Position numbers and translations under genes: made by a program. A DNA stretch of 64,000 nt from positions 1-64,000 of the forward strand of contig JACPDW010000021.1 in NCBI GenBank assembly GCA_016183815.1, written 5' to 3'. Shown here piece after piece: positions 4,239-54,007 of this stretch (its first letter is position 1; each line of letters starts with the position of its first letter). The DNA is from Flavobacteriia bacterium (GTDB taxonomy: Bacteria; Bacteroidota; Bacteroidia; Flavobacteriales_D; Crocinitomicaceae). The notes under the pieces were generated by a model, which worked only from the letters and a program-made list of their open reading frames with translations, was not told the DNA's origin and made no database searches.

Positions 4239-4466
4239 GTGGAATCTTATGAATTTTTAATAAAATTTTCAGAATATGTTAATTCAGAATATGTTAAGTT
4301 TTATAAAAGTAAATATGATTTTGCTATAGCATGTAATGTTGATGAAAAAACAATCAGAAGAGTTTTAAAAGCAGAGCAAAATATATCTTTTAAAATCCTT
4401 ATCAATATATGTTCTGCTTTAAATACAAAACCATCTATCGTTTTCGGAATAGTTGAGAATTTATAA
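4239..4466 (+). CDS. Small XRE-type helix-turn-helix regulator
   Basis: 75 residues starting with GTG. Residues about 24-70 read as a Cro/C1-type helix-turn-helix: FAIACNVDEKTIRRVLKAEQ, then ISFKILINICSALNTKPSIV. The pattern of 'skip first turn, bind, then a hydrophobic helix ending in LNTKPS' is usual for DNA-binding XRE domains. There is no extra domain, so it is a minimal regulator. It stands alone between a cargo cassette and an outer-membrane protein gene, and a GC palindrome lies just upstream. The target is unknown; it could be an antitoxin-like or prophage-type relic. Confidence 0.65.
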   Translation: MESYEFLIKFSEYVNSEYVKFYKSKYDFAIACNVDEKTIRRVLKAEQNISFKILINICSALNTKPSIVFGIVENL

Positions 4467-4477
4467 TTTTTAACATT

Positions 4478-4498
4478 TTAACCTGAGTTCGATTGTAA
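4478..4498 (+). repeat. Dispersed repeat, copy 1 (TAACCTGAGTTCGAT core)
   Basis: The 15-base core TAACCTGAGTTCGAT recurs exactly at 36794-36808 (same strand) and at 54036-54050 (reverse strand). Copies 1 and 2 also share a loosely similar end about 100-190 bases further on (CGG-GTTAACTCTCATTTA here). No open frame lies between 4467 and 4756, so the repeat fills most of this gap. Confidence 0.55.
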
Positions 4499-4744
4499 TA
4501 ATTAAATTACTTACGGTGCTTCTTCGCTGTCAGGTTAATATGAAGTTTTGAATCACTTTCTTTTATAATCCAATTTAACCCAAAATCAGCATTAGAAATA
4601 CTGATTCGATTAACAAAATCTAAATCAATTAGTTACAAAATTGATAGATTTTTTAAAACGGGGTTAACTCTCATTTAATATAGTTCGTTTTCTAAAAAAC
4701 TCCTAATGATTAATACGGGTTTAATAAAAGTACAGTTTATTTTC

Positions 4745-4752
4745 TAACTTTG
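4745..4752 (+). promoter_or_regulatory. Bacteroidota -7 box TAACTTTG
   Basis: TAACTTTG matches TAnnTTTG exactly. The ATG of the next gene begins only 4 bases after the box, so transcription would start at or next to the start codon and the mRNA would be leaderless or nearly so. Confidence 0.5.
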
Positions 4753-4756
4753 TTTC

Positions 4757-5518
4757 ATGAAAATCAAATTTTCTCTTTTATTTTTAATTCTATTTTTTAT
4801 CTCAAGCTTTCAAGCTCAAAGAAATTTACGAGATAGTATAATAGGAACTCCATGGGTGGCAATACATTATGGTGGCAATTGGTCAAAAAAAGATTTGGCT
4901 AATCGTTTTGGATATTGGAATCATTTAGGAATGCTTGTTGGTTACAAAACCTCAAGAAATTGGTATCTCGGTTTTGATTGGAATTTTTTATATTCAAATC
5001 AAGTCAAAGCACAGGGTTTATTTGACGATTTAATTGATGAAAAAGGAAATATTACGGATGTGAATGGAGATATTGCTACCGTATTGGTTTTTGGTCGAGG
5101 AGCAAATGTAAATGTGTCTATCGGGAAAGTAATTCCAAAATTAAGTCCTAACAAAAATTCAGGATTTTTCTTTCATATAGGTGGAGGTTACGCGATGAAT
5201 AAATTTAGAATTGAAACAAGAGACCATGTGGTTCCTTTATTAGAAAAAGAGTACCGTAAAGGTTACGATCGTTATGTACATGGTTTCAATATTCATGAAT
5301 TTATTGGTTATTCGTTTTTTCATAGTAAAGGAGTTGTTAACTTTTATGGTGGATTTTATGCCCAACAAGCGTTTACAAAATATCAAAGAAAAATCAATTT
5401 TGATGAACCAGATATTCCTGTACCCTCTAATACATTGTATGATTTTCAAATTGGGTTTAAGTTAGGTTGGTTTATCCCTATTTATAGAAGAAATACCAAA
5501 GATTATTATTACAATTAA
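4757..5518 (+). CDS. Outer-membrane beta-barrel-like protein, coupled to kdtA
   Basis: 253 residues. The first 20 residues form a signal peptide (ending SSFQAQ). The rest is rich in alternating aromatic and glycine residues (GYKTSRNWYLGFDWNFLYS; FFFHIGGGYAMNKF; FQIGFKLGWFIPIYRR near the end), as in small outer-membrane barrels of Bacteroidota. It starts with ATG just after a TAACTTTG promoter box. Its stop overlaps the kdtA start as TAATG, so the two are translationally coupled; a role in the outer membrane or lipopolysaccharide assembly is a guess from this coupling. I do not recognise a named family. Confidence 0.75.
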   Translation: MKIKFSLLFLILFFISSFQAQRNLRDSIIGTPWVAIHYGGNWSKKDLANRFGYWNHLGMLVGYKTSRNWYLGFDWNFLYSNQVKAQGLFDDLIDEKGNITDVNGDIATVLVFGRGANVNVSIGKVIPKLSPNKNSGFFFHIGGGYAMNKFRIETRDHVVPLLEKEYRKGYDRYVHGFNIHEFIGYSFFHSKGVVNFYGGFYAQQAFTKYQRKINFDEPDIPVPSNTLYDFQIGFKLGWFIPIYRRNTKDYYYN

Positions 5519-10312: not shown

Positions 10313-10434
10313 TTCAAGAGTGGATTGTTTATTTATTGATTGGGTTTTCAGCTTTTTATATTTTGAGAAAGGTGTATCGGTTTTTCTTTTCTAAAAATGA
10401 AAAGTGTGACGGGTGTTTGTTTAGTAAAAAATAA
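10309..10434 (+). CDS. FeoB-associated Cys-rich membrane protein
   Basis: 41 residues. The ATG at 10309 overlaps the feoB stop (ATGA). One membrane helix (residues about 5-19, WIVYLLIGFSAFYILRK) is followed by basic residues and the tail CDGCLFSKK. This layout, a single helix then CxxC, is the FeoB-associated Cys-rich family (PF12669-like) often found after feoB. The Cys pair probably binds iron or acts in redox during uptake. Very short, but position and motif agree. Confidence 0.8.
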   Translation: MIQEWIVYLLIGFSAFYILRKVYRFFFSKNEKCDGCLFSKK

Positions 10435-10455
10435 TCTATCTTATCGTATAGATAA
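10434..10455. other. Inverted repeat at the end of the feo operon
   Basis: ATCTAT (10434-10439) pairs with ATAGAT (10448-10453); TTATC (10441-10445) pairs with GATAA (10451-10455) as an alternative. It overlaps the last bases of the Cys-rich gene. The following T-run is weak, so a terminator is only possible. Confidence 0.25.
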
Positions 10456-10539
10456 CGATTTGATATTATTGGATATAATAATTGTGCAATTAGGTTTTTA
10501 AAAAATCATTTCATTCTTAAATTCTCTTTTTTTTTTTTG

Positions 10540-10547
10540 TATTTTTG
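10540..10547 (+). promoter_or_regulatory. -7 box TATTTTTG before the MNT gene
   Basis: TATTTTTG fits TAnnTTTG and lies 89 bases before the nucleotidyltransferase start. The leader would hold a 5-codon open frame at 10552 (ATG to TGA). Confidence 0.35.
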
Positions 10548-10636
10548 ACTTATGCAAAACATAAATTGAATTTCAAAAACAAATGTACTCCCGAATTTAC
10601 TGTTTTTTGGGTAGAAAAAATTAAAGAAAATAGAAT

Positions 10637-10951
10637 ATGGATAAAGAATTTGATACAATCTTAAAAGAATTTATTTCGTCTGTTTCTTCTAAAACACCTG
10701 GATTTATAAAAGCATACTTGTTTGGATCATTTGCAAATGGTGTTCAACATTTAAACAGTGACATAGATGTTGCGTTAATTATTAAAGATTTGAAAGACTC
10801 AGAAAAATTTGATTTACAAATACAATTGATGTTACTTGCATCAGATTTTGACAATAGAATTGAGCCACACCCCTTTTCTCCTGAAGATTTAGTATCAACT
10901 AATCCATTTATACATGAAATATTAAAATATGGTATTGAAATAAAAAAGTAA
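10637..10951 (+). CDS. Solitary MNT-type nucleotidyltransferase
   Basis: 104 residues. The Pol beta-like minimal nucleotidyltransferase motif GSFANG...SDIDVAL (residues about 31-49) is intact: GS, then D-x-D. The third acidic strand is probably FDNRIEPHPF (near 73-82). The C-terminus EILKYGIEIKK is typical of MNT proteins of HEPN/MNT modules, where MNT (MntA) AMPylates the HEPN toxin. No HEPN gene is next to it on either strand. It may be an orphan, or act on its own or with a distant partner. Confidence 0.8.
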   Translation: MDKEFDTILKEFISSVSSKTPGFIKAYLFGSFANGVQHLNSDIDVALIIKDLKDSEKFDLQIQLMLLASDFDNRIEPHPFSPEDLVSTNPFIHEILKYGIEIKK

Positions 10952-10995
10952 GATGGTTTTTTTTAACGTAAATTTATTGTACGTTTACTATAACT

Positions 10996-11121
10996 TTATT
11001 TTTTTGCCAATAACCCAAATAAGTCTTTGATTTGCAAGTCTTTTTCTTTAATTATCGTTTTTAACGATTCATTTTCTGCTTTTAAAATAGAAATGATTTC
11101 ATGGTGTAATCCTTCTTGCAT
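10996..11121 (-). pseudogene. Short coiled-coil reading frame, possible tail of a lost regulator
   Basis: An open frame of 41 residues from the ATG at 11121: MQEGLHHEIISILKAENESL and so on, ending LFGLLAKK. It is a coiled-coil-like heptad stretch, as found at the C-terminal end of some HTH regulators and plasmid-type proteins. A stop lies a few codons upstream of its ATG, so no DNA-binding part is attached. It may be a remnant or a real tiny protein; I cannot tell which. It sits between the convergent MNT gene and the Lrp gene. Confidence 0.35.
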
Positions 11122-11185
11122 TTTGTTGTAATTGTTTACAACAGCATTTGTTATGAGTTAGTTTTAATATTCAATTCAGCTAAAC

Positions 11186-11650
11186 TCAAACTTCCAACGG
11201 TAGTGAGGTGGTGAATTTCACTTCTTGCATAACGAAATAACTTTCTATATGTCCGATGCTTCTGATTTGGGAAATTTTATTAAGCATAAATTCTTGGTAT
11301 TTTTCTATATTTTTAGCAACTACTTTTAAACTAAAATCAAAGCCACCTGAAATATGATGACATTCAACGATTTCTGGATGTTTTTTCATTTCCTCCATGA
11401 ATTCATGAATGTATTCCTTTGTATGATTTTTAAGAGAGACGGAAATAATGACTACTAAATTAAAACCCAATTTTTTTTTGTTTAACAAATAGACTTGTTT
11501 TTTAATAATTCCAGCTCGTTTCATTTTTTTTATCCTTTCAAATATTGTTGAAATAGACAAACCAGCAGAATGTGCTACCTCTTTGTTTGAAATTTCTGAG
11601 TCTTCTTGTAAAGATTTCAAAATCAATAAGTCTTTAGAATCAATTTCCAT
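11186..11650 (-). CDS. Lrp/AsnC family regulator (module 1)
   Basis: 154 residues. The N-terminal winged helix (MEIDSKDLLILKSLQEDSEI, then SNKEVAHSAGLSISTIFERI and IKKQ) is followed by the RAM ligand-binding domain: VVIISVSLKNH, VECHHISGGFDFSLKV, IGHIESYFVMQEV. Lrp proteins bind amino acids and DNA as dimers or octamers. It is divergent from the KAS III-like gene across 152 bases that contain AATCGTA and TACGATT. It likely controls that gene and the PLP/OsmC genes behind it, responding to an amino acid, perhaps methionine or cysteine. A second Lrp at 52162 has the same arrangement with another PLP enzyme. Confidence 0.9.
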   Translation of the reverse strand: MEIDSKDLLILKSLQEDSEISNKEVAHSAGLSISTIFERIKKMKRAGIIKKQVYLLNKKKLGFNLVVIISVSLKNHTKEYIHEFMEEMKKHPEIVECHHISGGFDFSLKVVAKNIEKYQEFMLNKISQIRSIGHIESYFVMQEVKFTTSLPLEV

Positions 11651-11667
11651 AATATAAAATATTTAAT

Positions 11668-11736
11668 AATCGTACAAATATATGAAAAAAGTTAATAATA
11701 TAATAAATATTACATTAAATTTAAATTAATACGATT
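11668..11736. promoter_or_regulatory. Inverted TACGATT pair, candidate Lrp operator 1
   Basis: AATCGTA (11668-11674) and TACGATT (11730-11736) are exact inverted copies between the divergent lrp and KAS III genes; a variant TATGATT lies at 11774-11780. The same hexamer, TACGAT, recurs as an inverted pair at 13107-13112 and 13187-13192 before the PLP enzyme. I infer Lrp half-sites. Confidence 0.45.
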
Positions 11737-11802
11737 AGTTTATCTTAAAATATAAAAAATTATAATAATATTGTATGATTTAAAATTAATTATTTTAGTA
11801 AA

Positions 11803-12867
11803 ATGAGAAAACTTTATTCCAAAATTGTAGCAAGTGGTAGTTTTATTCCATTAAGAATTATTAAAAATAGTGATTTTCTTAAAAATAATTTTATTGACAA
11901 CATTTTAGAGAAAAGTAATGAAGAAATCATTTCTAAATTTTATGAAATAACTGGAATTTCTGAAAGACGATATGTGTTTTCTAATCAAACATGTTCAGAA
12001 ATTGGCTTTTTAGCGGCTAAAGATGCTTTAAACTCATCATCTGTTGAAAAAGAAGAAATTGATTGTATAATTGTAGCTCATAATTTTGGAGATGTATTCC
12101 ATCAAGCCGTTGATATTGTCCCTTCTATTGCTTGTAGAATTAAACACTTACTGGGTATTGAGAATGAAAATTGCATAGCGTACGATTTGATTTTTGGTTG
12201 CCCAGGTTGGGTTCAAGGATTAATTCAAGCAAATTATCTTCTTCAATCTGGAGATGCCAAAAGAATTATGGTTATTGGAACAGAAACATTGTCAAAAGTT
12301 ATTAATACAGAAGAAAAAGATTGTATGATATTTTCAGATGGAGCAGGAGCAGTAATTTTAGAATCTACTTATTCTGAATTTCCTGTTGGAATTTTATCTC
12401 ATGTTGCTAAAAGTTTTACTATAAATGAATATAATTATATCCGAACTCTTGAGGATAAAAACAGCAATTTAAAAATTAAAATGGAAGGTAGAAAAGTCTA
12501 TGAATTTGCATTAAAACATGTTCCATTAGCTGTTAAAGAGTGTTTAGATAAAGCACAAATTGATATTGATGGTGTTAAAAAAATTTTAATACATCAAGCA
12601 AATGAAAAAATGGATAATGCAATTTTAAATAGAATTTTGAGGTTGTATGGATATAATGAAGTGCCAAATGACATTATGCCAATGACTATTTCTAATTTAG
12701 GTAATAATTCAGTAGCAACTATTCCAATTATGTTAGATTTAATGCTAAAAAATCTATGCATTGAACATGAATTTGAAGATCATGCTATTTCAAAAGGAGA
12801 TATTATCGTCTTCGCATCTGTCGGTGCAGGCATGAATATAAATTCAATAGTTTATAAAGTAGATTAA
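11803..12867 (+). CDS. 3-oxoacyl-ACP synthase III-like ketosynthase
   Basis: 354 residues with the KAS III fold. The catalytic Cys is C133 in FGCPGWVQGL, His is H264 in IHQANEKM, and Asn is N301 in NLGNNSVATIPIM; thus the Cys-His-Asn triad is complete. Further family motifs are ITGISERRY, VIGTETLSK and FSDGAGAV. Such enzymes join an acyl-CoA starter to malonyl-ACP, or make ketones or quinolone-type products. It is not next to other fatty-acid genes, so a special role is likely. It is divergent from an Lrp gene and precedes a PLP enzyme by 351 bases. The substrate is open. Confidence 0.85.
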   Translation: MRKLYSKIVASGSFIPLRIIKNSDFLKNNFIDNILEKSNEEIISKFYEITGISERRYVFSNQTCSEIGFLAAKDALNSSSVEKEEIDCIIVAHNFGDVFHQAVDIVPSIACRIKHLLGIENENCIAYDLIFGCPGWVQGLIQANYLLQSGDAKRIMVIGTETLSKVINTEEKDCMIFSDGAGAVILESTYSEFPVGILSHVAKSFTINEYNYIRTLEDKNSNLKIKMEGRKVYEFALKHVPLAVKECLDKAQIDIDGVKKILIHQANEKMDNAILNRILRLYGYNEVPNDIMPMTISNLGNNSVATIPIMLDLMLKNLCIEHEFEDHAISKGDIIVFASVGAGMNINSIVYKVD

Positions 12868-13106
12868 ACTTGAAGCATTAATTCATATTAAGCATAGTTT
12901 AAAAACTTTATACTTAGAAATCTTTTTTTCTAACCTAAAGTTATTCTGACTTTTTCAGCAGACTCTAAATATAAGAAATTTAGTTTTAATAAGTTGTTTT
13001 TCTTAATTAAATTATTCAAAAATGTATTGATTTTATTGGTTATACAATATTTAACTGAAGTTTAGTCCTAAAAAATTAAAATATTTTTTATTAAACAGTA
13101 TAAAAA

Positions 13107-13198
13107 TACGATAAAAAATTAAAAAACAATAAAAAATACGGAAAATATAAAATATATGAGATTATATTATTAAAATAATTACAAACATCGTAAATTTG
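13107..13198 (+). promoter_or_regulatory. Promoter region of the PLP/OsmC operon with TACGAT pair
   Basis: The gene-free stretch 12868-13218 is very AT-rich with no open frame. It contains TACGAT (13107-13112) and its inverse ATCGTA (13187-13192), overlapping the -7 box TAAATTTG (13191-13198). The ATG follows 20 bases later. The overlap of one half-site with the box suggests repression by Lrp. Confidence 0.45.
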
Positions 13199-13218
13199 TT
13201 TTATTACATTATGAATTT

Positions 13219-14487
13219 ATGGATATAAAAGACGACACGTGGTTCAAAGATTTAAAAAGGAAAAGAGTTTCTGGACCAGAAATTAATGGTAATTCATATA
13301 GAAATTACGGAGAATCTACTAAATGTGTTCATGCAGGTCAATACGATGACCCCAATACAAATGCAATCGGGACACCAATTTTTCAAAATTCAACCTTTTA
13401 TTTAAACGATTCTGTTTACAAAGCAATTGAAGAAGGAAGCACAAGAGACTCTTTTATATATTCTCGTTATGGAAATCCCTCACAATGGGCTGTTCAAGAG
13501 AAAATTTCTTCAATAGAAAATGCTGAAAGCTCAATAGTTTTTTCATCGGGAATGGCTGCAATAAGTTCAACTATTCTTGCTTTAATAGAAAAAGGTGCAC
13601 ATATTGTAACTTCTCGTGATTTATATGGAGGAACATATAACTTACTTTATGAAGATCTTCAAAAATATGGTATTTCAGTCAGTTTTGTTGACATGACCAA
13701 TATCAAAGAAATAGAAGAAAGTATAAATCCAAAAACCAAACTACTTTATTTTGAATCGCTTTCAAATCCTTTACTCAAATTTGCACCAATTCCCTCTTTA
13801 GTAAAATTAGCTAAAGAAAATGGTTGTCGTTTGGTTATTGATAATACTTTCCTTACTCCTTATAATTTAAAAGTTCTTGATTTAGGAGTAGATATAGTAA
13901 TAAACAGTGCAACAAAATATTTAGGTGGTCATTCAGATTTGATTGCTGGTACAATAAGTGGAAGCAGAAAATTAATTGATCAGATTTGGCCACAAATGTT
14001 AAAAAATGGTGGGTCTCTCGACCCACATGCTTGTTTTTTATTGGAAAGAAGTCTTAAAACTTTGTCCTTACGAATGAGAACTCACAATGACAATGCATTA
14101 GAATTAGCACATTTTTTTCAAAATCGAGAGGAAATTAAAAAAGTTTATTACCCTGGAATGGATTCTCATCCTCAATATGATTTAATCAATCATTTAACAG
14201 ATGGAAAGTTTAGTGGAATGATCAGTTTTGAAATAATTGGAGGAGATAAAATGGCTCTTCGTTTATTGAAAGAATTAAAATTGGCAAAAGAAGCAACCAG
14301 TTTAGGTGGAGTGGAAAGTTTAATTAGTTTGCCCTTTAATACCTCTCAAGCATCATTAACAAAAAATCAAAAAAAATCTATTGGAATTAATGAGGGTTTG
14401 ATTCGTTTATCAGTTGGAATTGAGGATATTGAAGATTTAAAATACGATTTTGAACAAGCATTTAATAAAATATTTAATAATAATTAA
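13219..14487 (+). CDS. Cys/Met-metabolism PLP enzyme (gamma-family lyase/synthase)
   Basis: 422 residues of the trans-sulfuration fold. The PLP-lysine is K233 in SATKYLGGHSD, the phosphate-binding part is SSGMAAISST, and IDNTFLTPY carries the PLP-pyridine Asp. C-terminal motifs SLGGVESLISLP and IRLSVGIED are typical of methionine gamma-lyase, cystathionine gamma-lyase/synthase and O-acetylhomoserine sulfhydrylase, which cannot be told apart here. The ATG lies 20 bases after a TAAATTTG box. Ten bases on comes an OsmC gene, so the pair is an operon. A role in sulfur amino-acid breakdown or thiol formation is likely. An N-terminal extension of about 30 residues is present. Confidence 0.88.
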   Translation: MDIKDDTWFKDLKRKRVSGPEINGNSYRNYGESTKCVHAGQYDDPNTNAIGTPIFQNSTFYLNDSVYKAIEEGSTRDSFIYSRYGNPSQWAVQEKISSIENAESSIVFSSGMAAISSTILALIEKGAHIVTSRDLYGGTYNLLYEDLQKYGISVSFVDMTNIKEIEESINPKTKLLYFESLSNPLLKFAPIPSLVKLAKENGCRLVIDNTFLTPYNLKVLDLGVDIVINSATKYLGGHSDLIAGTISGSRKLIDQIWPQMLKNGGSLDPHACFLLERSLKTLSLRMRTHNDNALELAHFFQNREEIKKVYYPGMDSHPQYDLINHLTDGKFSGMISFEIIGGDKMALRLLKELKLAKEATSLGGVESLISLPFNTSQASLTKNQKKSIGINEGLIRLSVGIEDIEDLKYDFEQAFNKIFNNN

Positions 14488-14497
14488 AATTTAAACT

Positions 14498-15040
14498 ATG
14501 AAAAACAACATTAATATTTCTGGATTAAGCGAATACGTGCATGAAGTTTTAGATTGCCCAACGCAAGCAAAAGTGAATTATGGAGTCGAAGTGGACTGGT
14601 TAAGTGGTACCAAAACTAAAGCTACGGTAAAAAACATGAATCTTGGCGACCAAAAACTTGTGAGAAATTTCACTTTTGAGATTGATGAACCGAATCAACT
14701 ACTTGGTTTAAACACTAATCCCACCCCTCAAGAATATTTGATGGCAGGTGTAGCGGGATGTATGGCTGTAACCTTTGTGGCAGGGGCTACTTTGTTAGGA
14801 ATTACGATTGAATCATTGAAAATTGAGATTGAAGGTCAGTTGGATTTATGTGGCTTTTTGGGTCTTGAGAGTACTCAACCAACAGGATTTAAGGAGTTTA
14901 CTTGCAATATTCACGTCAATGGAAACGGAACAAAAGAACAGTATGAAGTACTTCGCAACAGAGTAATGAATCATTCACCTAATTTTTCTTCTTTAGTTTC
15001 AGGAGTAAAAATGAATCCGGAAATTATTATAAAAACATAA
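14498..15040 (+). CDS. OsmC-like protein
   Basis: 180 residues. The OsmC/Ohr fold is supported by TPQEYLMAGVAGCMAV with C88 at the position of the first redox Cys. The place of the usual second Cys (CPxS in Ohr/OsmC) reads NHSPNFSSLV, with Ser160 instead of Cys. Without the pair, classical peroxide reduction is doubtful and a binding or other thiol role is possible. It follows the PLP enzyme by 10 bases, so both are probably co-transcribed. OsmC proteins usually deal with organic hydroperoxides or sulfur compounds; the latter would fit the neighbour. Confidence 0.85.
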   Translation: MKNNINISGLSEYVHEVLDCPTQAKVNYGVEVDWLSGTKTKATVKNMNLGDQKLVRNFTFEIDEPNQLLGLNTNPTPQEYLMAGVAGCMAVTFVAGATLLGITIESLKIEIEGQLDLCGFLGLESTQPTGFKEFTCNIHVNGNGTKEQYEVLRNRVMNHSPNFSSLVSGVKMNPEIIIKT

Positions 15041-15105
15041 AATTTCAATTTATTGCTAAAAAAACTAAAAACAAACCAAATAAAAACTTATAAAACCCAA
15101 ATAAT

Positions 15106-17418
15106 ATGAAAAATTTAAATTGTACAAATTGGATGATAATTTTGCTCTTTTTTGCAAATATCAATCAAGTTAAAGCTGCAGCAAGAACATGGATTGGTGC
15201 AGGAGCTGGTGGAGCAGGAACAGATTTTAACAGTGCTTCCAATTGGACAGGAGCAGGTGCATTATTATCTACAGATGATTTAACCATGAATATATCTGGA
15301 AATGCGACGATAACAGTAAGTGCAAATGTTACGATACGAAATTTAACTTTTACTGTAAGCGGAGGAAACATTGGAATTTTAAGTTCAGGAACAAAAATTT
15401 TAACAGTAAACGGTCCATTTGTTTGTAATGGAGTTGATTATTTTAATCCTGCCAATTATTCTTATGCACGAATTTATTCTGCTTCTTCAGGGGCTGGTTT
15501 TATTTTTAATAGTACGGCAACTTTTCATAATGGCGGAGCAGGAAGAACAAATTTGTATGCAGCAACCACTTCTCCTGGATTCATGAAGTTTTATAATAAT
15601 GTAACTTTTGGTTCCAATTGTTTTACCAGTCCTGGCGTTGAACCAGAAATGTATTTTGATGCAACAATTTCACAAACAATTACTTGTAATAATAGTTTGA
15701 ATTATGTAATGCCTGAAGATTTGTTTTTTGGATTTGTGAACAGTCCAACCATCACTTTTGCAGGATCTAAACAAGATTGGTTTTATGGTACTTATGATGG
15801 AAATGTAAGAATTAAAAATTCAACTTTAGTTAAAGCAAATTACTGCACTTTAGATGGTTATGTAGCTGCCTTAAATTTTTATATGGAATCAGGTTCTAAA
15901 TTAGAGATTAATTATACGAATGATTTTCCTCAAGGTGGTTATAATGGTTATTCATTAGACCCAAATAGCACAGTAGAATATTTAGGTGCTGCGAGCAACC
16001 AAACAGTTTCGGGTACTAGTGTTGTTTCCTTGGCTTATGGTCACTTAATTATTGGTGGAAGTGGTAATAAATCAACTGGATCTAATACTATTTGTAAAGG
16101 AAACTTCACAATAAATAATGGAGCAACTTTTTTAAGCAATGGATTTACCCATGAAAATAGAGCTAATTTCACAAATAATGGAACTTTTACGGCTGGTACA
16201 AGTACACATCAATTTACAGGAAGTGTTATGCAATTTATCAACGGGACAAACCTTCCTGTTTTTTATAAATTAACGATTAACAATACCTCTACTGGTGTAA
16301 CTTTAAATCGACAAGCAAACGTGTCAAACCTATTGACTTTAACCGATGGAGTAGTTTATACTTCTGCTGGTAATCATCTTGAAGTTACTAGTACTGGAAC
16401 ATCAACAACAGGAAGTGATGCGTCACATGTCGATGGGCCTATGAGAAAAGCAGGAACTGCTGCATTTAATTTTCCAGTGGGCGATGCAGGAGTTTGGGCA
16501 AGAATAGGTATTTCAGCCCCAACTGTAAACAGTACTTTTGAAGCGATATACCATTTCATGGATTCTCCTAATTGTACTACAGTTACAGCTCACCTACAAT
16601 ATGTTTCTCACATTGAATATTGGGATTTAGTAAGGACTGCAGGTACATCTAATGCAACAATTACACTGTTTTGGGAAAACAATACAAGAAGTGGTATCAC
16701 TGACGGAACGAGTGCTGATTTAAAGGTTGCACGTTGGAATGGTGCCAGCTGGGAAGATAGAGGGCATGTGTCTGATGCGGGTACTACCTCTTTGAATGGC
16801 TGGGTATCAAGTGTTGTAAATACTGCCTTTAACATGTTCACTTTTGGTTCTATTTCTGATCCATCAACAAATCCTTTACCTGTTGATTTGAAAAATCTAA
16901 CATTAAATTGTAAAAATTCAAATGAAGTTGAATTAGAATGGGAAACATTAAGTGAAAGAGAAAACGATTATTTTTTTATTGATAAAAGCAATGATGGAAT
17001 TGTTTTTCATCTTTTAAATAAAATTGAGGGTGCAGGTAACAGTTTGAATTCAATAGCTTATTCGTCTTCTGATTCTTCAATAGATGGTTTAACTTATTAT
17101 CGTTTATCACAAGTAGATAACAATGGAACAATTAGAATTTTAGATACAAAATCTATTAATTGTATTGCTGAAAAAGAAGACATTTTTATAGCATATACAC
17201 CAAATAAATTGAATATAACGATTTATAGAAAAGATAAACAAGAATTTACTTTTTTATTAATAGGAAGTGATGGCAAATTGGTTTATTCAGAAAATATGGT
17301 ATTGAACAAAGGAATAAATCAGTTTCAAATTCCAACCAATAATTCGAAACCAGGGATGTATTATTTAAAAATTACATCAACCAATTCAATTGAACAAAAA
17401 AAAGTTATTATAAATTAA
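15106..17418 (+). CDS. Large T9SS cargo protein, type A sorting tail
   Basis: 770 residues. A signal peptide (ending VKAAA) is followed by a G/N/T-rich beta-solenoid-like region: TWIGAGAGGAGTDF opens it, and repeats such as FTINNGA, NFTNNGTFTAGTST and LTLTDGVV follow. After PLPVDLKNLTLNC comes the common Bacteroidota module EVELEWETLSERENDYFFID with YYRLSQVDNNG (residues about 590-680). The C-terminal type A T9SS domain ends MYYLKITSTNSIEQKKVIIN. The gene starts 66 bases after the OsmC gene and is followed by another cargo gene after 25 bases. Probable surface or secreted protein; the function is not clear. Confidence 0.85.
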   Translation: MKNLNCTNWMIILLFFANINQVKAAARTWIGAGAGGAGTDFNSASNWTGAGALLSTDDLTMNISGNATITVSANVTIRNLTFTVSGGNIGILSSGTKILTVNGPFVCNGVDYFNPANYSYARIYSASSGAGFIFNSTATFHNGGAGRTNLYAATTSPGFMKFYNNVTFGSNCFTSPGVEPEMYFDATISQTITCNNSLNYVMPEDLFFGFVNSPTITFAGSKQDWFYGTYDGNVRIKNSTLVKANYCTLDGYVAALNFYMESGSKLEINYTNDFPQGGYNGYSLDPNSTVEYLGAASNQTVSGTSVVSLAYGHLIIGGSGNKSTGSNTICKGNFTINNGATFLSNGFTHENRANFTNNGTFTAGTSTHQFTGSVMQFINGTNLPVFYKLTINNTSTGVTLNRQANVSNLLTLTDGVVYTSAGNHLEVTSTGTSTTGSDASHVDGPMRKAGTAAFNFPVGDAGVWARIGISAPTVNSTFEAIYHFMDSPNCTTVTAHLQYVSHIEYWDLVRTAGTSNATITLFWENNTRSGITDGTSADLKVARWNGASWEDRGHVSDAGTTSLNGWVSSVVNTAFNMFTFGSISDPSTNPLPVDLKNLTLNCKNSNEVELEWETLSERENDYFFIDKSNDGIVFHLLNKIEGAGNSLNSIAYSSSDSSIDGLTYYRLSQVDNNGTIRILDTKSINCIAEKEDIFIAYTPNKLNITIYRKDKQEFTFLLIGSDGKLVYSENMVLNKGINQFQIPTNNSKPGMYYLKITSTNSIEQKKVIIN

Positions 17419-17442
17419 TTATTCACTAAAATAAAAAAAAAC

Positions 17443-19377
17443 ATGAAAAAAATTACGTTAACCGCTATCATTTTTACTTTCTGTGGTGGATTATTTTCAC
17501 AAACTATGTTAGCTAATAAAAAAGTTTATCCATCAAAAAATACCAATAAAATATTTTTGAAAGAAAATATAAGTTATGAAAAATCAGGTGGTGATATATT
17601 ATACGAACAAAACTTTAACGGTTCGATTGGAGATTTTACTACTTCTGGGGTAGATCAAAATGTTTGGCAATTTGACTTAGATGGAGCAAGTGGACAATGG
17701 GCTAGTCCTTATGATATGATACAATCAACAACTTCTTTCAACGGTTTTATGATTTTTGATGCAGATTTATCTAATCCAGGAGACCCTTCAACTTATGTAT
17801 ATAGATCTGGAATGTTGGTCTCACCTATTATTGATTTAAGTTCAAATTCCTCATTTTTTATTTCCTTTGAACATCAGTTAATGTATTGTTGTTCTTATAC
17901 ATTTTATCCTACTTTAGAAGTTACAACAGATGGATTTAACACTTTTACAGCTTATGATGTAAGAGACATAGGTTTTTCTGTTAATGAAACCCCAGGTACA
18001 GTTACAAAAATTGTTTTAATAGATGATTTTATTAATAACAATCCCAATTTAAACCAATTTCAGTTTAGATTTAATTTTGATGGAAATTCCCATCAGACAA
18101 CACATTATTATTGGCAAATTGATGATATTAAAATCATAGAAAAGCACAATACAGAAGTGAGTTTAGAAAAATTGTGGTTAGGTGACATCTTTAATGGCTA
18201 TGAAATCACTGAAAGTACGCCCTTTTTAGCTCCTAATTTAACTGTTCAAGGAGTGGTTAGAAGTATGGGGATTTCAAATCCTAATGATTTTAAAATTCGT
18301 TTAAGCGTAAAAGATAGCTTAGGAAACGAAGTACATAATAGTGTTGGAGGAGTTTTAAATAACAACTTTACAAATGAATATGATACCATCATATTTAATT
18401 CCAACTTTGCATTAAATACTTTGTCTTTAGGAGTGTATCAAATAAGTGCAACACTTGAATATAACGGTACTGATGGAAACTTAAGTAATAATTCAAAATC
18501 GAGAACTTTTAATATGACTCAAAATAAATTGTCTTCAATAAATTATGATAACGAATATTATTATGAAAAAAATGTTGGATGGTATTACGGACATGACAAT
18601 ATCGCAACAGATATGATTGTTGGTCAAATGTTTAAAGCAAGTAAAGAGTTTAAATTAAATGGTTTAGATTTATATTTAGCCGATGGAACAGAAATGTATC
18701 CTACTAAAAATGACGAACAAATGTTAATCAATGTTTGGGAATTCATACCAACTAATCCACAAGAAAGTTTATTTGAATATGTAGGAGGTGATTATGCTTA
18801 CATGGTATCTAGTGAGAAATACAGTGAAAATGTCAGTTCATATACTTTTCAGTTTAGTGAATCCACTTCGATAACAGAACCAATGATTTTGGATTCCGGT
18901 AAAATTTATTTAGCTGCTTTTAATCACATGGGAGGATTGGGTGCTTATTTATGGTACTGGACTTCTTTTTTTGATGATGATTATTCTAGCTGGGTATTTG
19001 GTCCATTTGGTATGAATGGTGAAACAAGTTGGTTTACTTCAGGAAAACAAGATGCATTAATTAAAATGAATGTCCAAGAAATAGTGGATTCTACTGCATT
19101 TTTAGAAGAAAATCAAGAACAGTTTATTATTAAACTTTTTCCAAATCCGACTTTAAATACTTTAACATTATTTACAAACTTTAATGGAATGGAAAGTTTA
19201 AACTATCAAATCGTTGATAATCAAGGAAAAATTTTACAAAGCAAGGAATTAAAAAAGAACAATAAAGAACTTAATTCTTATACAATTGATGTTTCAGATC
19301 TATCTCAGGGAAGTTATTTAATTAGAATTGTAACTAAAGAAGGAACGAAAATGAAAAAGTTTTTTAAGATGAATTAA
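17443..19377 (+). CDS. T9SS cargo protein with jelly-roll domain, type A sorting tail
   Basis: 644 residues. A signal peptide (MKKITLTAIIFTFCGGLFSQ) is followed near residues 54-230 by a concanavalin-like or MAM-type jelly roll: LYEQNFNGSIGDF, SPIIDLSSNSSFFISFEHQL, YYWQIDDIKI. Such modules occur in Bacteroidota secreted proteases and adhesins. The middle (about 230-560) lacks a recognised fold. The tail (from about 565) has LFPNPTLNTLTLFTNF and DLSQGSYLIRIVTKEG, a type A domain. No catalytic motif is evident. It follows the previous cargo gene closely and precedes the glycosyltransferase by 33 bases. Confidence 0.85.
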   Translation: MKKITLTAIIFTFCGGLFSQTMLANKKVYPSKNTNKIFLKENISYEKSGGDILYEQNFNGSIGDFTTSGVDQNVWQFDLDGASGQWASPYDMIQSTTSFNGFMIFDADLSNPGDPSTYVYRSGMLVSPIIDLSSNSSFFISFEHQLMYCCSYTFYPTLEVTTDGFNTFTAYDVRDIGFSVNETPGTVTKIVLIDDFINNNPNLNQFQFRFNFDGNSHQTTHYYWQIDDIKIIEKHNTEVSLEKLWLGDIFNGYEITESTPFLAPNLTVQGVVRSMGISNPNDFKIRLSVKDSLGNEVHNSVGGVLNNNFTNEYDTIIFNSNFALNTLSLGVYQISATLEYNGTDGNLSNNSKSRTFNMTQNKLSSINYDNEYYYEKNVGWYYGHDNIATDMIVGQMFKASKEFKLNGLDLYLADGTEMYPTKNDEQMLINVWEFIPTNPQESLFEYVGGDYAYMVSSEKYSENVSSYTFQFSESTSITEPMILDSGKIYLAAFNHMGGLGAYLWYWTSFFDDDYSSWVFGPFGMNGETSWFTSGKQDALIKMNVQEIVDSTAFLEENQEQFIIKLFPNPTLNTLTLFTNFNGMESLNYQIVDNQGKILQSKELKKNNKELNSYTIDVSDLSQGSYLIRIVTKEGTKMKKFFKMN

Positions 19378-19394
19378 ATCTTATTTTTTTTTAG

Positions 19395-19402
19395 TACGTT
19401 TG
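19395..19402 (+). promoter_or_regulatory. -7 box TACGTTTG before the glycosyltransferase
   Basis: TACGTTTG matches TAnnTTTG exactly and lies 8 bases before the ATG at 19411, so the leader would be only about 2-4 bases. Confidence 0.5.
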
Positions 19403-19410
19403 TATTGTAA

Positions 19411-52161: not shown

Positions 52162-52635
52162 TCAACCATTTTCCAATATTTTTTTCATTATAAAAGAACT
52201 TTGAACTGTCCCGATATGCGGTATTTTTGTTAATTTTTCTTTGATAAAAATAGCATATTCCTCCATGTCTTTTACCTCTATTTTTAAAAGATAATCATAA
52301 CTTCCCGCGATGTGATAACAAGATAAAACTTCTTCTAATTGGGTGATTTTTTCTTCAAAAGTGCAAAGCATTTCATACGTATGAGAGGTTAATGATACAT
52401 TGCAAAAAGCAGCAATATTTTTTCCACATTTTTTTGCATCTATGAGTACAGTATAACCTTTAATGATTTTTAATTTTTCAAGTCTTTTTATCCTTTCAAA
52501 AATTGGAGTTGAACTTAGTTCTGTCAAATATGAAAGTTCTTTTATACTGTATTTAGCATTCTTTTTTAACAGGGAAATTATTTTTTTATCCATGTTGTCC
52601 ATTTCATAGGTAGAATTTTTTTCTCTTAAAGTCAT
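52162..52635 (-). CDS. Lrp/AsnC family regulator (module 2)
   Basis: 157 residues. The winged helix part MDKKIISLLKKNAKYSIKEL and TELSSTPIFERIKRLEKL is followed by the RAM domain (AFCNVSLTSHTYEM, SCYHIAGSYDYLLKI, IGTVQSSFIMKKI). It is divergent from the PLP enzyme at 52751 across 115 bases. That gap holds TTAGAATA three times, one inverted. Lrp regulators of this kind often control their neighbour in response to an amino acid. It resembles the Lrp at 11186 in size and arrangement. Confidence 0.9.
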   Translation of the reverse strand: MTLREKNSTYEMDNMDKKIISLLKKNAKYSIKELSYLTELSSTPIFERIKRLEKLKIIKGYTVLIDAKKCGKNIAAFCNVSLTSHTYEMLCTFEEKITQLEEVLSCYHIAGSYDYLLKIEVKDMEEYAIFIKEKLTKIPHIGTVQSSFIMKKILENG

Positions 52636-52648
52636 ACAAAATATTTTT

Positions 52649-52751
52649 ATTTAGAATAAAACAAATTAAAAATGCAAATATATAGAAAAATATACTTTTA
52701 TTATCATTTATATGTTGTATATATTCTAAATTAGCAATAAATATTAGAATA
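52649..52751. promoter_or_regulatory. Three TTAGAATA sites, candidate operator of Lrp 2
   Basis: ATTTAGAATA (52649-52658) and TATTCTAAAT (52722-52731) are a perfect 10-base inverted pair; TTAGAATA occurs again at 52744-52751, up to the start codon. They fill the divergent region between lrp and the PLP gene. No TACGAT motif is present here, so this Lrp seems to read a different site. Confidence 0.5.
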
Positions 52752-54007
52752 TGAATGATAGAAAAATGCACCCAGAAAGTTTGATGATGAGTCATGGATA
52801 TAAACCTTCTTTATCTGAAGGGGCAATCAAATGTCCAATTTTTCAAACTTCAACCTTTGTTTTCAATAAAGCAGAAGAAGGTAAAAGATTTTTTGAAGTA
52901 GCTTATGGTATAAAGGAGCAAGAAAAAGGTGAAGAATTAGGTTTAATTTATAGTAGGTTAAACAATCCTGATTTAGAAATTCTTGAAAATCGTTTGTGTT
53001 TATGGGACGAAGCTGAAGATTGTGCAGTGTTTGAAAGCGGAATGTCAGCTATTTCAACTGCTTTGATGGAATTTTTATCTCCTGGTGATATATTATTGTA
53101 TAGCCGTCCTGTTTATGGAGGTACAGATCATTTTATCAATCATTTTTTGAAAAAATTAAATATTCATTCAATTGGTTTTATTGCCGGTGAAACAAAAGAA
53201 CAAATTATTAAAAGAATTGAGTCCTCTAAGGTGAGTGGAAATTTAAAAATGATTCACATCGAAACTCCAGCCAACCCAACCAATGCATTGATAGACATAG
53301 AAATGTGTGCCGAAATTAAAAACTATTTTTCTAATGAAAATCGTCAAGTTATTTTGTCTGTTGACAATACTTACATGGGACCTTTATGGCAACATCCATT
53401 AAAACATGGAGCTGATTTGGTTTTGTATTCAGCAACAAAATATATTGGTGGTCATTCTGATATAATAGCTGGTGCTTGTTTGGGTTCAAAAGAGTTGATA
53501 ACAAGGGTAAAAGGATTAAGAACATTTTTAGGAAATATGGCTGGACCTTGGACTGGTTGGCTTTTGATGAGAAGTTTAGAAACTTTGAAAGTAAGAATGG
53601 AAGAACAAGCAAAAAATGCTTCATTGGTTGCTCAATACCTTTCAAAACATCCAAAAGTGGAAAAGGTGTATTTTCTTGGATTTATTCCTGAAAATGGTTC
53701 TGCAATTGAAAAAGAAATTTATAAAAAACAGTATCTATCGTCTGGTGCTATGATTTCTTTTGATATAAGAGGTGATGAAAAAGAAGCTTTTTCTTTTCTT
53801 AATACATTAAAATTAATAAAATTAGCTGTTTCTTTGGGAAGTACTGAAAGTTTGGCTGAACATCCTTTTACAATGACCCATGTAGATGTAGCCGATGAAT
53901 ACAAAGCGGCGTTAAATATTAGCGAAAAATTAATTCGATTGTCTGTTGGAGTTGAGCATCACGAAGATATAATTGCAGATATTAAACAGGCATTGGATAA
54001 CGTTTAA
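52751..54007 (+). CDS. Cystathionine gamma-synthase-family PLP enzyme
   Basis: 418 residues. PLP-lysine K230 in YSATKYIGGHSD; the phosphate-site stretch ESGMSAISTAL; the pyridine Asp in VDNTYMGPLW; the end IRLSVGVEHHEDI. Members of this family act as cystathionine gamma-synthases, lyases or methionine gamma-lyases; SLGSTESLAEHPFTMTH is the usual substrate-site end. A different subgroup from the PLP enzyme at 13219 (its start MNDRKMHPESLMMSHGYKPS is unlike the other's). It is divergent from an Lrp gene. A dispersed repeat follows the stop. Confidence 0.9.
   Translation: MNDRKMHPESLMMSHGYKPSLSEGAIKCPIFQTSTFVFNKAEEGKRFFEVAYGIKEQEKGEELGLIYSRLNNPDLEILENRLCLWDEAEDCAVFESGMSAISTALMEFLSPGDILLYSRPVYGGTDHFINHFLKKLNIHSIGFIAGETKEQIIKRIESSKVSGNLKMIHIETPANPTNALIDIEMCAEIKNYFSNENRQVILSVDNTYMGPLWQHPLKHGADLVLYSATKYIGGHSDIIAGACLGSKELITRVKGLRTFLGNMAGPWTGWLLMRSLETLKVRMEEQAKNASLVAQYLSKHPKVEKVYFLGFIPENGSAIEKEIYKKQYLSSGAMISFDIRGDEKEAFSFLNTLKLIKLAVSLGSTESLAEHPFTMTHVDVADEYKAALNISEKLIRLSVGVEHHEDIIADIKQALDNV

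Follow-up and report, generated by a model that had tools for sequence, protein, structure and literature searches.

Gene content of the locus

The window, meaning the whole analysed stretch of 64,000 nucleotides, lies on contig JACPDW010000021.1 of a Flavobacteriia bacterium. A sequence-only reading had grouped an Lrp, a KAS III, a PLP and an OsmC gene within it as one module, and the presence of all four at these positions was confirmed by open reading frames and profile matches. The following features were recorded:

10313..19410, no strand: 9.1-kb stretch between feoB and a glycosyltransferase gene, without counterpart in two congeners
11186..11650, minus strand: Lrp/AsnC-family regulator (PF01037, 79 bits), divergent from the block
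11803..12867, plus strand: KAS III-like protein (PF08545 and PF08541; C133, H264, N301)
12868..13218, plus strand: gap of 351 bp with a candidate promoter box (TAAATTTG at 13191-13198)
13219..14487, plus strand: PLP2, a gamma-family (Cys/Met metabolism) PLP enzyme of 422 aa (PF01053, 432 bits)
14498..15040, plus strand: OsmC-family protein (180 aa; PF02566, 50.5 bits) whose single conserved Cys is C88

The Lrp gene encodes both the HTH and the AsnC ligand domain (PF13412, PF01037) of the Lrp/AsnC family, and the Cys-His-Asn triad of the KAS III-like enzyme was complete, as had been read. The divergent Lrp and KAS III genes are separated by 152 bp, KAS III and PLP2 by 351 bp, and PLP2 and OsmC by 10 bp; judged by these gaps, only PLP2 and OsmC resemble one transcription unit.

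The view that no sulfur-amino-acid genes surround the block needs qualification, as a second divergent pair of an Lrp gene (52162-52635, minus strand) and a gamma-family PLP gene (52751-54007, plus strand) is located about 37 kb away. The PLP gene of this pair belongs to the PRK07049 family (537.7 bits against a cut-off of 504).

Besides the module, the 9.1-kb stretch carries two T9SS cargo genes and one nucleotidyltransferase gene. In two congeners without it, feoB and the glycosyltransferase gene are directly consecutive; the latter was intact in G002, represented by two partial pieces only in G001, and not near feoB in G003. PLP2, OsmC and KAS III were not found in G001-G004. A foreign base composition of the stretch was considered and rejected (29.1% GC versus 30.4% for the window), and no repeat longer than 10 bp was shared by the two compared ends.

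Linkage of PLP2 and OsmC

A scan with PLP2 patterns yielded 80 kept loci, and OsmC was directly downstream of PLP2 in all of them (80/80), in contrast to 0/40 control loci of other enzymes from the same PLP family. This linkage is far beyond chance. The gap between the two genes, measured from match ends, ranged from -4 to 126 bp, with 277 bp in a broken copy (L129).

KAS III was found in 0/80 of the PLP2 loci. The core of the locus is the PLP2-OsmC gene pair, and the four flagged genes do not form one pathway. The earlier reading thus held for the PLP-OsmC module, mostly with an Lrp gene nearby, and failed for the membership of KAS III; the conserved neighbourhood that it had asked for among relatives exists for the former and is absent for the latter. 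Its view that the module may be undescribed agrees with a literature search, in which no paper describing the PLP-OsmC pair was found by title or opening lines among those listed from the open-licence literature; PMC6372562, the only one to contain both "methionine gamma-lyase" and "OsmC", stands outside this negative result.

Three clades and their gene company

The PLP2 tree comprised three clades, matching three genomic settings, and the window PLP2 grouped with the Bacteroidota clade. In this clade (19 loci) the layout was a divergent Lrp gene followed by flavin monooxygenase, PLP2 and OsmC. The monooxygenase occupied the slot of KAS III in 19/19 loci; except in the broken copy L129, it stood at -7 to 49 bp from PLP2 (18/19). 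A search of G000 with the monooxygenase of these relatives, run without a positive control, gave no match. A monooxygenase remnant in the 351-bp gap was also considered, and tblastn returned only chance matches (best E 0.22).

In the second, mainly proteobacterial clade, methionine gamma-lyase and/or the E1 component of a 2-oxoacid dehydrogenase adjoined the pair in 41 of the 47 loci (methionine gamma-lyase in 34, E1 in 38, both in 31, neither in 6), a gene company confirmed by HMM for two loci. An Lrp or TyrR-like regulator was present in 44/47, counted anywhere within the fetched locus, while tblastn showed E2 in 8/47 and E3 in 5/47. Neither KAS III nor the flavin monooxygenase was found in the 47 loci.

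In the third clade, an N-hydroxylase-like flavoenzyme was encoded at each of the 14 loci, as was a tandem OsmC in which one site was changed from Cys to Asp or Glu in 12/14. NRPS adenylation homology was detected in nine of these loci, and one (L169) contained a sulfur-carrier set made up of a JAB protease and a MoeZ-like sulfurtransferase. The literature search returned no paper naming natural products of the NRPS-linked clusters. Taken over all settings, the pair occurred in marine and soil bacteria as well as in antibiotic-type gene clusters.

The mde operon of Pseudomonas putida (mdeR-mdeA-mdeB) serves methionine catabolism. Many second-clade loci share with it the divergent Lrp gene, the gamma-lyase and E1, but add PLP2 and a one-Cys OsmC. 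In the window, the divergent Lrp gene (11186-11650, minus strand) was present, whereas neither methionine gamma-lyase (mdeA) nor E1 adjoined PLP2-OsmC, nor were they among the open reading frames listed for 5-22 kb. Co-induction of mdeA and aceE/mdeB is reported (PMC10256816).

KAS III-like gene

Outside the window, the KAS III-like gene was observed in other company. No Lrp, PLP or OsmC gene occurred in the 1.5-kb flanks of its 12 other relatives (12/12), and in 16/16 orthologous Bacteroidota loci whose genomes carry PLP2-OsmC elsewhere it followed gcvP (identified by HMM for two loci and by eye for 14). The window protein scored below the FabH cut-off (TIGR00747; 187.4 versus 292.1 bits), and the canonical FabH of the genome is a separate gene on C16, above that cut-off at 370.1 bits, which would leave the window KAS III available for a different role. 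KAS III was rejected as a part of the module, being absent from all 80 loci and solo or gcvP-linked elsewhere; it is probably an unrelated neighbour of PLP2-OsmC.

Lrp and regulation

A divergent Lrp gene was present in 18/19 Bacteroidota loci; the remaining locus (L116) is truncated where its contig ends. In the second clade, an Lrp gene lay within 3.5 kb upstream in 32/47 loci. The Lrp of one relative (L102) found its best match in another Lrp of the window's genome. Strict orthology of the window Lrp with those of the relatives was thus supported neither by the best-match test nor by the tree. The inclusion of Lrp in the module stands in so far as such a gene is usually near PLP-OsmC, but it is weakly conserved and no reciprocal best match was obtained. 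The window Lrp is a plausible candidate regulator of PLP2-OsmC. A common Lrp box was sought with a matrix built from the intergenic regions of 18 relatives and rejected, as the two intergenic regions of the window came 457th and 65th when every position of the 64 kb was ranked.

The TAAATTTG box lies 28 bp before the PLP2 start. Its consensus, TAnnTTTG, was found 25-29 bp ahead of the first operon gene in 7/18 relatives. The box is a possible separate promoter of PLP2-OsmC; the case is weak because about 0.3 such boxes are expected by chance in 351 bp and no upstream TTG was found at the tested spacing.

Features of PLP2

PLP2 belongs to PF01053 (432 bits against a cut-off of 27), with the PLP-binding lysine K233 conserved in 81/81 sequences. 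Y136 and G138 were also invariant, N141 was present in 78/81, and a subfamily-specific N-terminal motif, W-x(2,3)-[LMQ]-x(0,1)-R-x-R-x-x-G-P, was found in 81/81. The best solved relatives are methionine gamma-lyases. Nevertheless, the protein scored below the cut-offs for methionine gamma-lyase (TIGR01328; 357.1 versus 549.7 bits) and for cystathionine gamma-lyase/synthase (NF005810, 362 versus 594; NF005871, 338.1 versus 513). It was under the curated cut-off of all 25 families shown of the 51 matched, so PLP2 may catalyse another reaction.

With methionine gamma-lyase, PLP2 shares the fold family, the PLP lysine and Tyr136; it differs by Gly138, an N-terminal extension, and NTS replacing MTH near the C terminus. 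The active-site Cys of methionine gamma-lyase lies two residues after its Tyr114, and at this position PLP2 has Gly138 (81/81). Two solved sequences have Ala there, and these are presumably Cys variants. At the putative position of the Arg by which cystathionine gamma-lyase/synthase binds the distal carboxylate, PLP2 has Asn141 (78/81).

Features of OsmC

The AlphaFold model of the window OsmC (pLDDT 86) had only OsmC/Ohr proteins as top structure matches. By sequence, the nearest solved relative is 2opl, which also has Ser at the resolving site; superposition of the whole model on it was poor (rmsd 21.5, TM 0.53) and was better on 3cje (rmsd 4.4, TM 0.63-0.74). The fold and the peroxidatic Cys (C88, 81/81) are common to the window OsmC and the Ohr/OsmC peroxidases, such as E. 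coli OsmC (1nye/1qwi). In contrast to the latter, the resolving position of the PLP2-linked proteins is held by Ser160 in 79/79 readable sequences, and the second catalytic Cys of the peroxidases is thus missing. In Ohr/OsmC peroxidases both Cys are critical and reduction is by lipoylated proteins (PMC8945050).

The missing Cys was rejected as a hallmark of the pair, since OsmC proteins without a PLP2 neighbour also have Ser at the resolving site: 6/6 plasmid proteins compared and 4/11 proteins of the phylum without an adjoining PLP gene. Four one-Cys OsmC-like proteins (L098-L101; 37-39% identity to the window OsmC) have SPN at this site and differ in that no PLP2 adjoins. On an Acinetobacter plasmid, a one-Cys OsmC gene without PLP2 stands beside dsbA-, oye-, trx-, sdr- and ahpD-like genes and a tetR gene. 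A gene set for allicin resistance resembles it; in the part of the source available, the contribution of osmC itself is not shown (PMC7119367).

A gamma-family PLP gene directly followed by OsmC, as in the pair, was also seen in MetY-OsmC-MetX operons of Bacteroidota (18 loci, MetY being named by HMM for two). These differ in having an O-acetylhomoserine sulfhydrylase (the two scanned), biosynthetic company and both Cys in OsmC (Cys at the resolving site in 18/18). A tie of OsmC to sulfur-amino-acid regulation is known from the osmC-bhmT-ordL region of Pelagibacter, where osmC lies behind a SAM riboswitch and rises under sulfur limitation; the available text of this source differs in describing no PLP2 partner and places MetY elsewhere (PMC5069961). 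An OsmC-like protein beside a sulfide:quinone oxidoreductase was up 7.1-fold on organic disulfide growth (PMC5157978).

Discussion

PLP2-OsmC probably deals with sulfur that stems from methionine-like amino acids. Tentatively, and at what is judged less than an even chance, the pair is read as a two-gene unit of sulfur-amino-acid metabolism. PLP2 would be a gamma-type C-S lyase whose substrate, a sulfur amino acid akin to methionine or homocysteine, yields ammonia, a 2-oxoacid and either a thiol or a hydropersulfide. The reactive sulfur product would be accepted by C88 of OsmC, as a mixed disulfide, as a persulfide, or after sulfenate formation, and an outside thiol would reset the protein; in Proteobacteria this may be provided by dihydrolipoyl groups of the 2-oxoacid dehydrogenase whose E1 is encoded alongside. 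An Lrp-type amino-acid sensor would set expression, and in the window the unit would consist of PLP2-OsmC with the divergent Lrp, next to a KAS III neighbour. The earlier idea that OsmC deals with a thiol by-product may well be right.

This reading is favoured by the linkage (80/80 versus 0/40), by the methionine gamma-lyase, E1 and regulator company of the second clade, by the sulfur-carrier set of L169, by the C88/Ser160 pattern as opposed to the two-Cys OsmC beside MetY (18/18), and by the published observations on OsmC proteins cited above (PMC8945050, PMC5069961, PMC5157978). Against it count the scores of PLP2 below the curated family cut-offs, the presence of E2, the lipoyl carrier, in just 8/47 loci, the 6/47 loci without methionine gamma-lyase and E1, and the wider occurrence of the one-Cys type. 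The window itself lacks methionine gamma-lyase and E1 beside the pair, the promoter element of the relatives and a reciprocal-best Lrp, and G000 gave no monooxygenase match. The NRPS-linked clade may speak for synthesis rather than cleavage.

Such a synthetic role, in which PLP2 would perform gamma-replacement on an activated homoserine with OsmC delivering or holding the sulfur nucleophile, and catabolic operons would use the pair to recapture methanethiol or sulfide, is considered unlikely. It draws on the NRPS adenylation homology in 9/14 third-clade loci and on the sulfhydrylase set of Bacteroidota in which OsmC is placed between MetY and MetX; however, the MetY-linked OsmC is of the different, two-Cys type, and the company of 31/47 second-clade loci is degradative (methionine gamma-lyase and E1). 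Rather unlikely, too, is an OsmC acting as a stress protein, a peroxidase or thiol protector beside a thiol-producing lyase and chemically uncoupled from it. Family and fold would suit this, as would the one-Cys type without PLP2, including the plasmid set that resembles the allicin-resistance genes (PMC7119367), but a protector that is optional should not turn up in 80/80 loci, and the second Cys needed by Ohr/OsmC peroxidases (PMC8945050) is missing in all 79 readable sequences.

Both explanations that give KAS III a part fare worse. That it replaced the flavin monooxygenase and, in this lineage alone, cooperates with PLP2-OsmC is very unlikely: the slot between Lrp and PLP2 is the same and G000 gave no monooxygenase match, yet the two enzymes are not chemically equivalent, the 47 second-clade loci have neither gene, and the gap is 351 bp instead of -7 to 49 bp (18/19). 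The proposed four-gene pathway, in which the lyase releases a 2-oxoacid, the acyl-CoA from it primes KAS III and OsmC removes by-products, is already largely refuted and highly improbable. The genes are close together, the triad is complete and a separate canonical FabH exists (C16, 370 bits); nevertheless, KAS III is missing from the 80 loci, occurs without the other genes in 12/12 relatives, is gcvP-linked in 16 Bacteroidota genomes holding PLP2 elsewhere, and is set apart by the 351-bp gap.

A further, rather unlikely extension of the C-S lyase reading is that PLP2 and OsmC form one two-component enzyme, with sulfur passed to Cys88 and OsmC serving as a thiol or persulfide relay and no peroxidase, a device that would have been reused both in methionine catabolism and by assembly lines for natural products. 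If true, the tandem OsmC of the assembly lines would combine a live with a dead site, and the wider one-Cys OsmC type would share thiol or persulfide chemistry.

The usual annotation of OsmC proteins is that of a peroxide-stress protein, and a one-Cys OsmC linked to a sulfur-lyase-like enzyme in all loci kept offers a testable case for a different chemistry. The pair marks a group of clusters in actinobacteria and rhizobia, many of them with NRPS genes, whose product may be an amino acid that bears sulfur or is unusual in another way. It also bears on what becomes of methionine sulfur, as methanethiol or hydrogen sulfide, in Roseobacter, Oceanospirillales and Flavobacteriaceae of the sea.

Gene Content and Spacing

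All four genes that the sequence-only reading had placed at 11186–15040 were found as described, with the full Cys-His-Asn triad in the KAS III-like protein:

11186–11650, minus strand, Lrp
11803–12867, plus strand, KAS III-like protein (triad C133, H264, N301)
13219–14487, plus strand, gamma-family PLP enzyme (PLP2)
14498–15040, plus strand, OsmC-family protein

The genome (3.24 Mb, 44 contigs) is listed as 100% complete. The only tight spacing among the four genes was the 10-bp gap between PLP2 and OsmC; the KAS III gene lies 351 bp from PLP2 and 152 bp from the divergent Lrp gene. A small nucleotidyltransferase gene (10637–10951) resembles MntA antitoxins at 37.3 bits, under the cut-off of 60, and the stretch directly 3' of osmC (15106–19377) encodes two large proteins that carry type IX secretion sorting tails.

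Conservation of the PLP2–OsmC Pair

In a tblastn search of plasmids, PLP2 was detected at 52–57% identity in Sulfitobacter, Roseovarius, Shinella and Polaromonas, with OsmC adjoining, and a more distant copy in Kocuria (47%) was likewise adjoined by OsmC. Five plasmid PLP2 proteins and that of the window (alignment A1) served as seeds for a single scan of genome contigs. The scan patterns were derived from PLP2 alone, yet all six seeds adjoin OsmC, and an OsmC match had led to three of the five plasmid seeds. The best 80 of 100 confirmed PLP2 relatives were kept, and tblastn placed OsmC downstream of PLP2 in 80/80 of these loci, the match ends lying −4 to 126 bp apart (277 bp in a broken copy, L129). 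As a control, other enzymes of this PLP family were examined at 40 loci, 29 in relatives and 11 in the phylum; OsmC was found in 0/40 within 1.5-kb flanks. The widely kept PLP2–OsmC pair is real. The KAS III query matched in 0/80 of the same loci by tblastn, so that of the proposed four-gene co-occurrence the pair was retained and KAS III was not.

In a set of 59 genomes (this one and 58 relatives), OsmC matched at E 1e-10 in this genome only, and PLP matches in the others did not exceed 43% identity. At E 1e-100, PLP2 occurred in one other genome among 399 of the order, from the same family (68% identity); the best other PLP enzyme among 395 phylum genomes was 46% identical.

Three Clades and Their Gene Company

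The 80 loci were sorted by company (monooxygenase, N-hydroxylase-like flavoenzyme, or neither) before tree building. In the tree of 81 PLP2 proteins all three came out apart, supported at 98/99 or more and with the fewest possible changes; the window row is a long branch of odd composition.

A flavin monooxygenase was present in 19/19 loci of the Bacteroidota clade and a divergent Lrp gene in 18/19, the contig of the remaining locus (L116) ending first. The window row groups with Bacteroidota PLP2 (100/99), and KAS III occupies the monooxygenase slot in the window. In G729, the genome of the same family and probably one record with L118, the order is likewise Lrp, divergent from monooxygenase–PLP2–OsmC.

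The second clade comprises 47 loci, of which one carries a Planctomycetota label and the others were treated as proteobacterial. Methionine gamma-lyase (MGL) was encoded in 34/47 and the E1 component of a 2-oxoacid dehydrogenase in 38/47 (both in 31, neither in 6), with E2 in 8/47 and E3 in 5/47. An Lrp or TyrR-like regulator occurred anywhere in the fetched locus in 44/47, and a divergent Lrp gene within 3.5 kb upstream in 32/47. A TyrR-like sigma-54 activator was noted next to PLP2 in 13/47 (for example L136, 5138–6667), mostly in marine gammaproteobacteria, in addition to or in place of Lrp.

The third clade, chosen by its N-hydroxylase-like flavoenzyme (14/14), includes Streptomyces, Micromonospora, Embleya, Rhizobiales, Azospirillum and one oceanospirillaceal genome (L154, L157, L163–L165, L167, L169, L173, L174, L176–L178, L180, L181). 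OsmC is in tandem in 14/14, with Asp/Glu replacing Cys in the second domain in 12/14, and NRPS adenylation homology was found in 9/14. Outside these nine, L169 encodes an AMP-binding enzyme, a MoeZ-like sulfurtransferase and a JAB protease.

Features of PLP2 and OsmC

PLP2 scored under the curated cut-off of all 25 families shown of 51 matched NCBIfam families, and its closest solved structures are methionine gamma-lyases. The N-terminal motif W-x(2,3)-[LMQ]-x(0,1)-R-x-R-x-x-G-P was present in 81/81 PLP2 proteins, as was Gly138; Asn141 was found in 78/81, and Thr360, Asn374 and Ser376 in 80/81, with one gap. These scores and residues mark PLP2, judged by sequence, as a distinct subfamily whose substrate is not readable from it.

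The AlphaFold model of OsmC (mean pLDDT 86) matched OsmC/Ohr structures; 2opl ranked first by E-value but superposed poorly overall (rmsd 21.5), and 3cje fitted better (4.4). The peroxidatic C88 was conserved in 81/81, and the resolving position (residue 160) was Ser in 79, the L122 and L129 proteins ending short of it. In 18/18 Bacteroidota OsmC proteins whose gene directly follows another gamma-family PLP gene, this position was Cys.

These 18 of 29 OsmC loci (L056, L058, L060, L061, L063, L064, L066–L076, L079) pair a two-Cys OsmC with a gamma-family PLP enzyme, identified as MetY for the two scanned, and many also have a MetX-like gene; OsmC of MetY-type loci is tied to methionine synthesis. 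Ser was also found in 4/11 phylum OsmC proteins not behind a PLP gene, and six OsmC proteins either lacking a PLP2 neighbour or lying outside the pair (the L094 second copy at 4413–4967, L098, L099, L100, L101 and 2opl) carried SPN or Ser, the five from plasmid loci being one-Cys (SPN) forms. Ser as a feature special to the PLP2 partner was thereby ruled out. The L101 OsmC lies among dsbA-, oye-, trx-, sdr- and ahpD-like genes, resembling allicin-resistance sets.

Both Cys residues are critical in Ohr/OsmC peroxidases, and lipoylated proteins of 2-oxoacid dehydrogenases reduce these enzymes (PMC8945050). By this precedent, the dehydrogenase encoded beside the pair is a candidate electron donor and would reduce OsmC, with E2 in only 8/47 loci.

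Position of KAS III

The KAS III type (E 1e-60) occurred in 13 of the 59 genomes, this one counted, and in the other 12 Lrp, PLP and OsmC were absent from its 1.5-kb flanks. Orthologues at the same threshold were found in 16/20 searched Bacteroidota genomes with PLP2, the 20 including G729 and L118, probably one record. PLP2, OsmC, Lrp and monooxygenase were not in the 1.5-kb flanks of these 16, and all 16 lie behind a gcvP-like gene (two identified by HMM, the others by eye). In L189–L204, this KAS III family, which differs from FabH, is kept after gcvP in Flavobacteriaceae. The genome of the window also encodes a canonical FabH as a separate gene. Together these findings assign KAS III to another role and make its placement here peculiar to the genome. 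The idea of KAS III as part of the module is thus abandoned: it is a bystander of the PLP2–OsmC pair.

Origin and Regulation

The feoB region was compared with congeners G001, G002 and G003. In G002 a glycosyltransferase gene directly follows feoB; in the window 9.1 kb separates the two; G001 has two partial glycosyltransferase pieces after feoB, and in G003 the gene is not near feoB. PLP2 (E 1e-100), OsmC (E 1e-10) and KAS III (E 1e-60) were absent from G001–G004. The gene order and the missing genes indicate that the stretch was gained in this genome or lost in the congeners; its composition gave no sign of recent import. Both type IX secretion tail proteins fall inside the stretch absent from two congeners.

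The divergent Lrp orientation is compatible with amino-acid control. A second Lrp gene (minus strand), divergent from a gamma-family PLP gene, lies at 52162–54007; its PLP enzyme belongs to the PRK07049 family (537.7 bits, above the family cut-off), is 34% identical to PLP2 and is a possible methionine-lyase partner here. The Lrp of locus L102 is nearer to the window Lrp at 52177 (48%) than to that at 11186 (39%). In the Lrp tree both window proteins fell in with the 18 Bacteroidota Lrps, apart from the rest (97/94), that at 11186 being outermost on a long branch. A promoter element common to the relatives was not found in the window; 28 bp ahead of PLP2 stands a TAAATTTG box like that of 7/18 relatives, which is a weak hint.

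The PLP2–OsmC pair probably serves sulfur metabolism and adds a new form to the known sulfur-amino-acid lyase systems. What sets it apart is a separate PLP subfamily with a one-Cys OsmC behind it in every kept locus.
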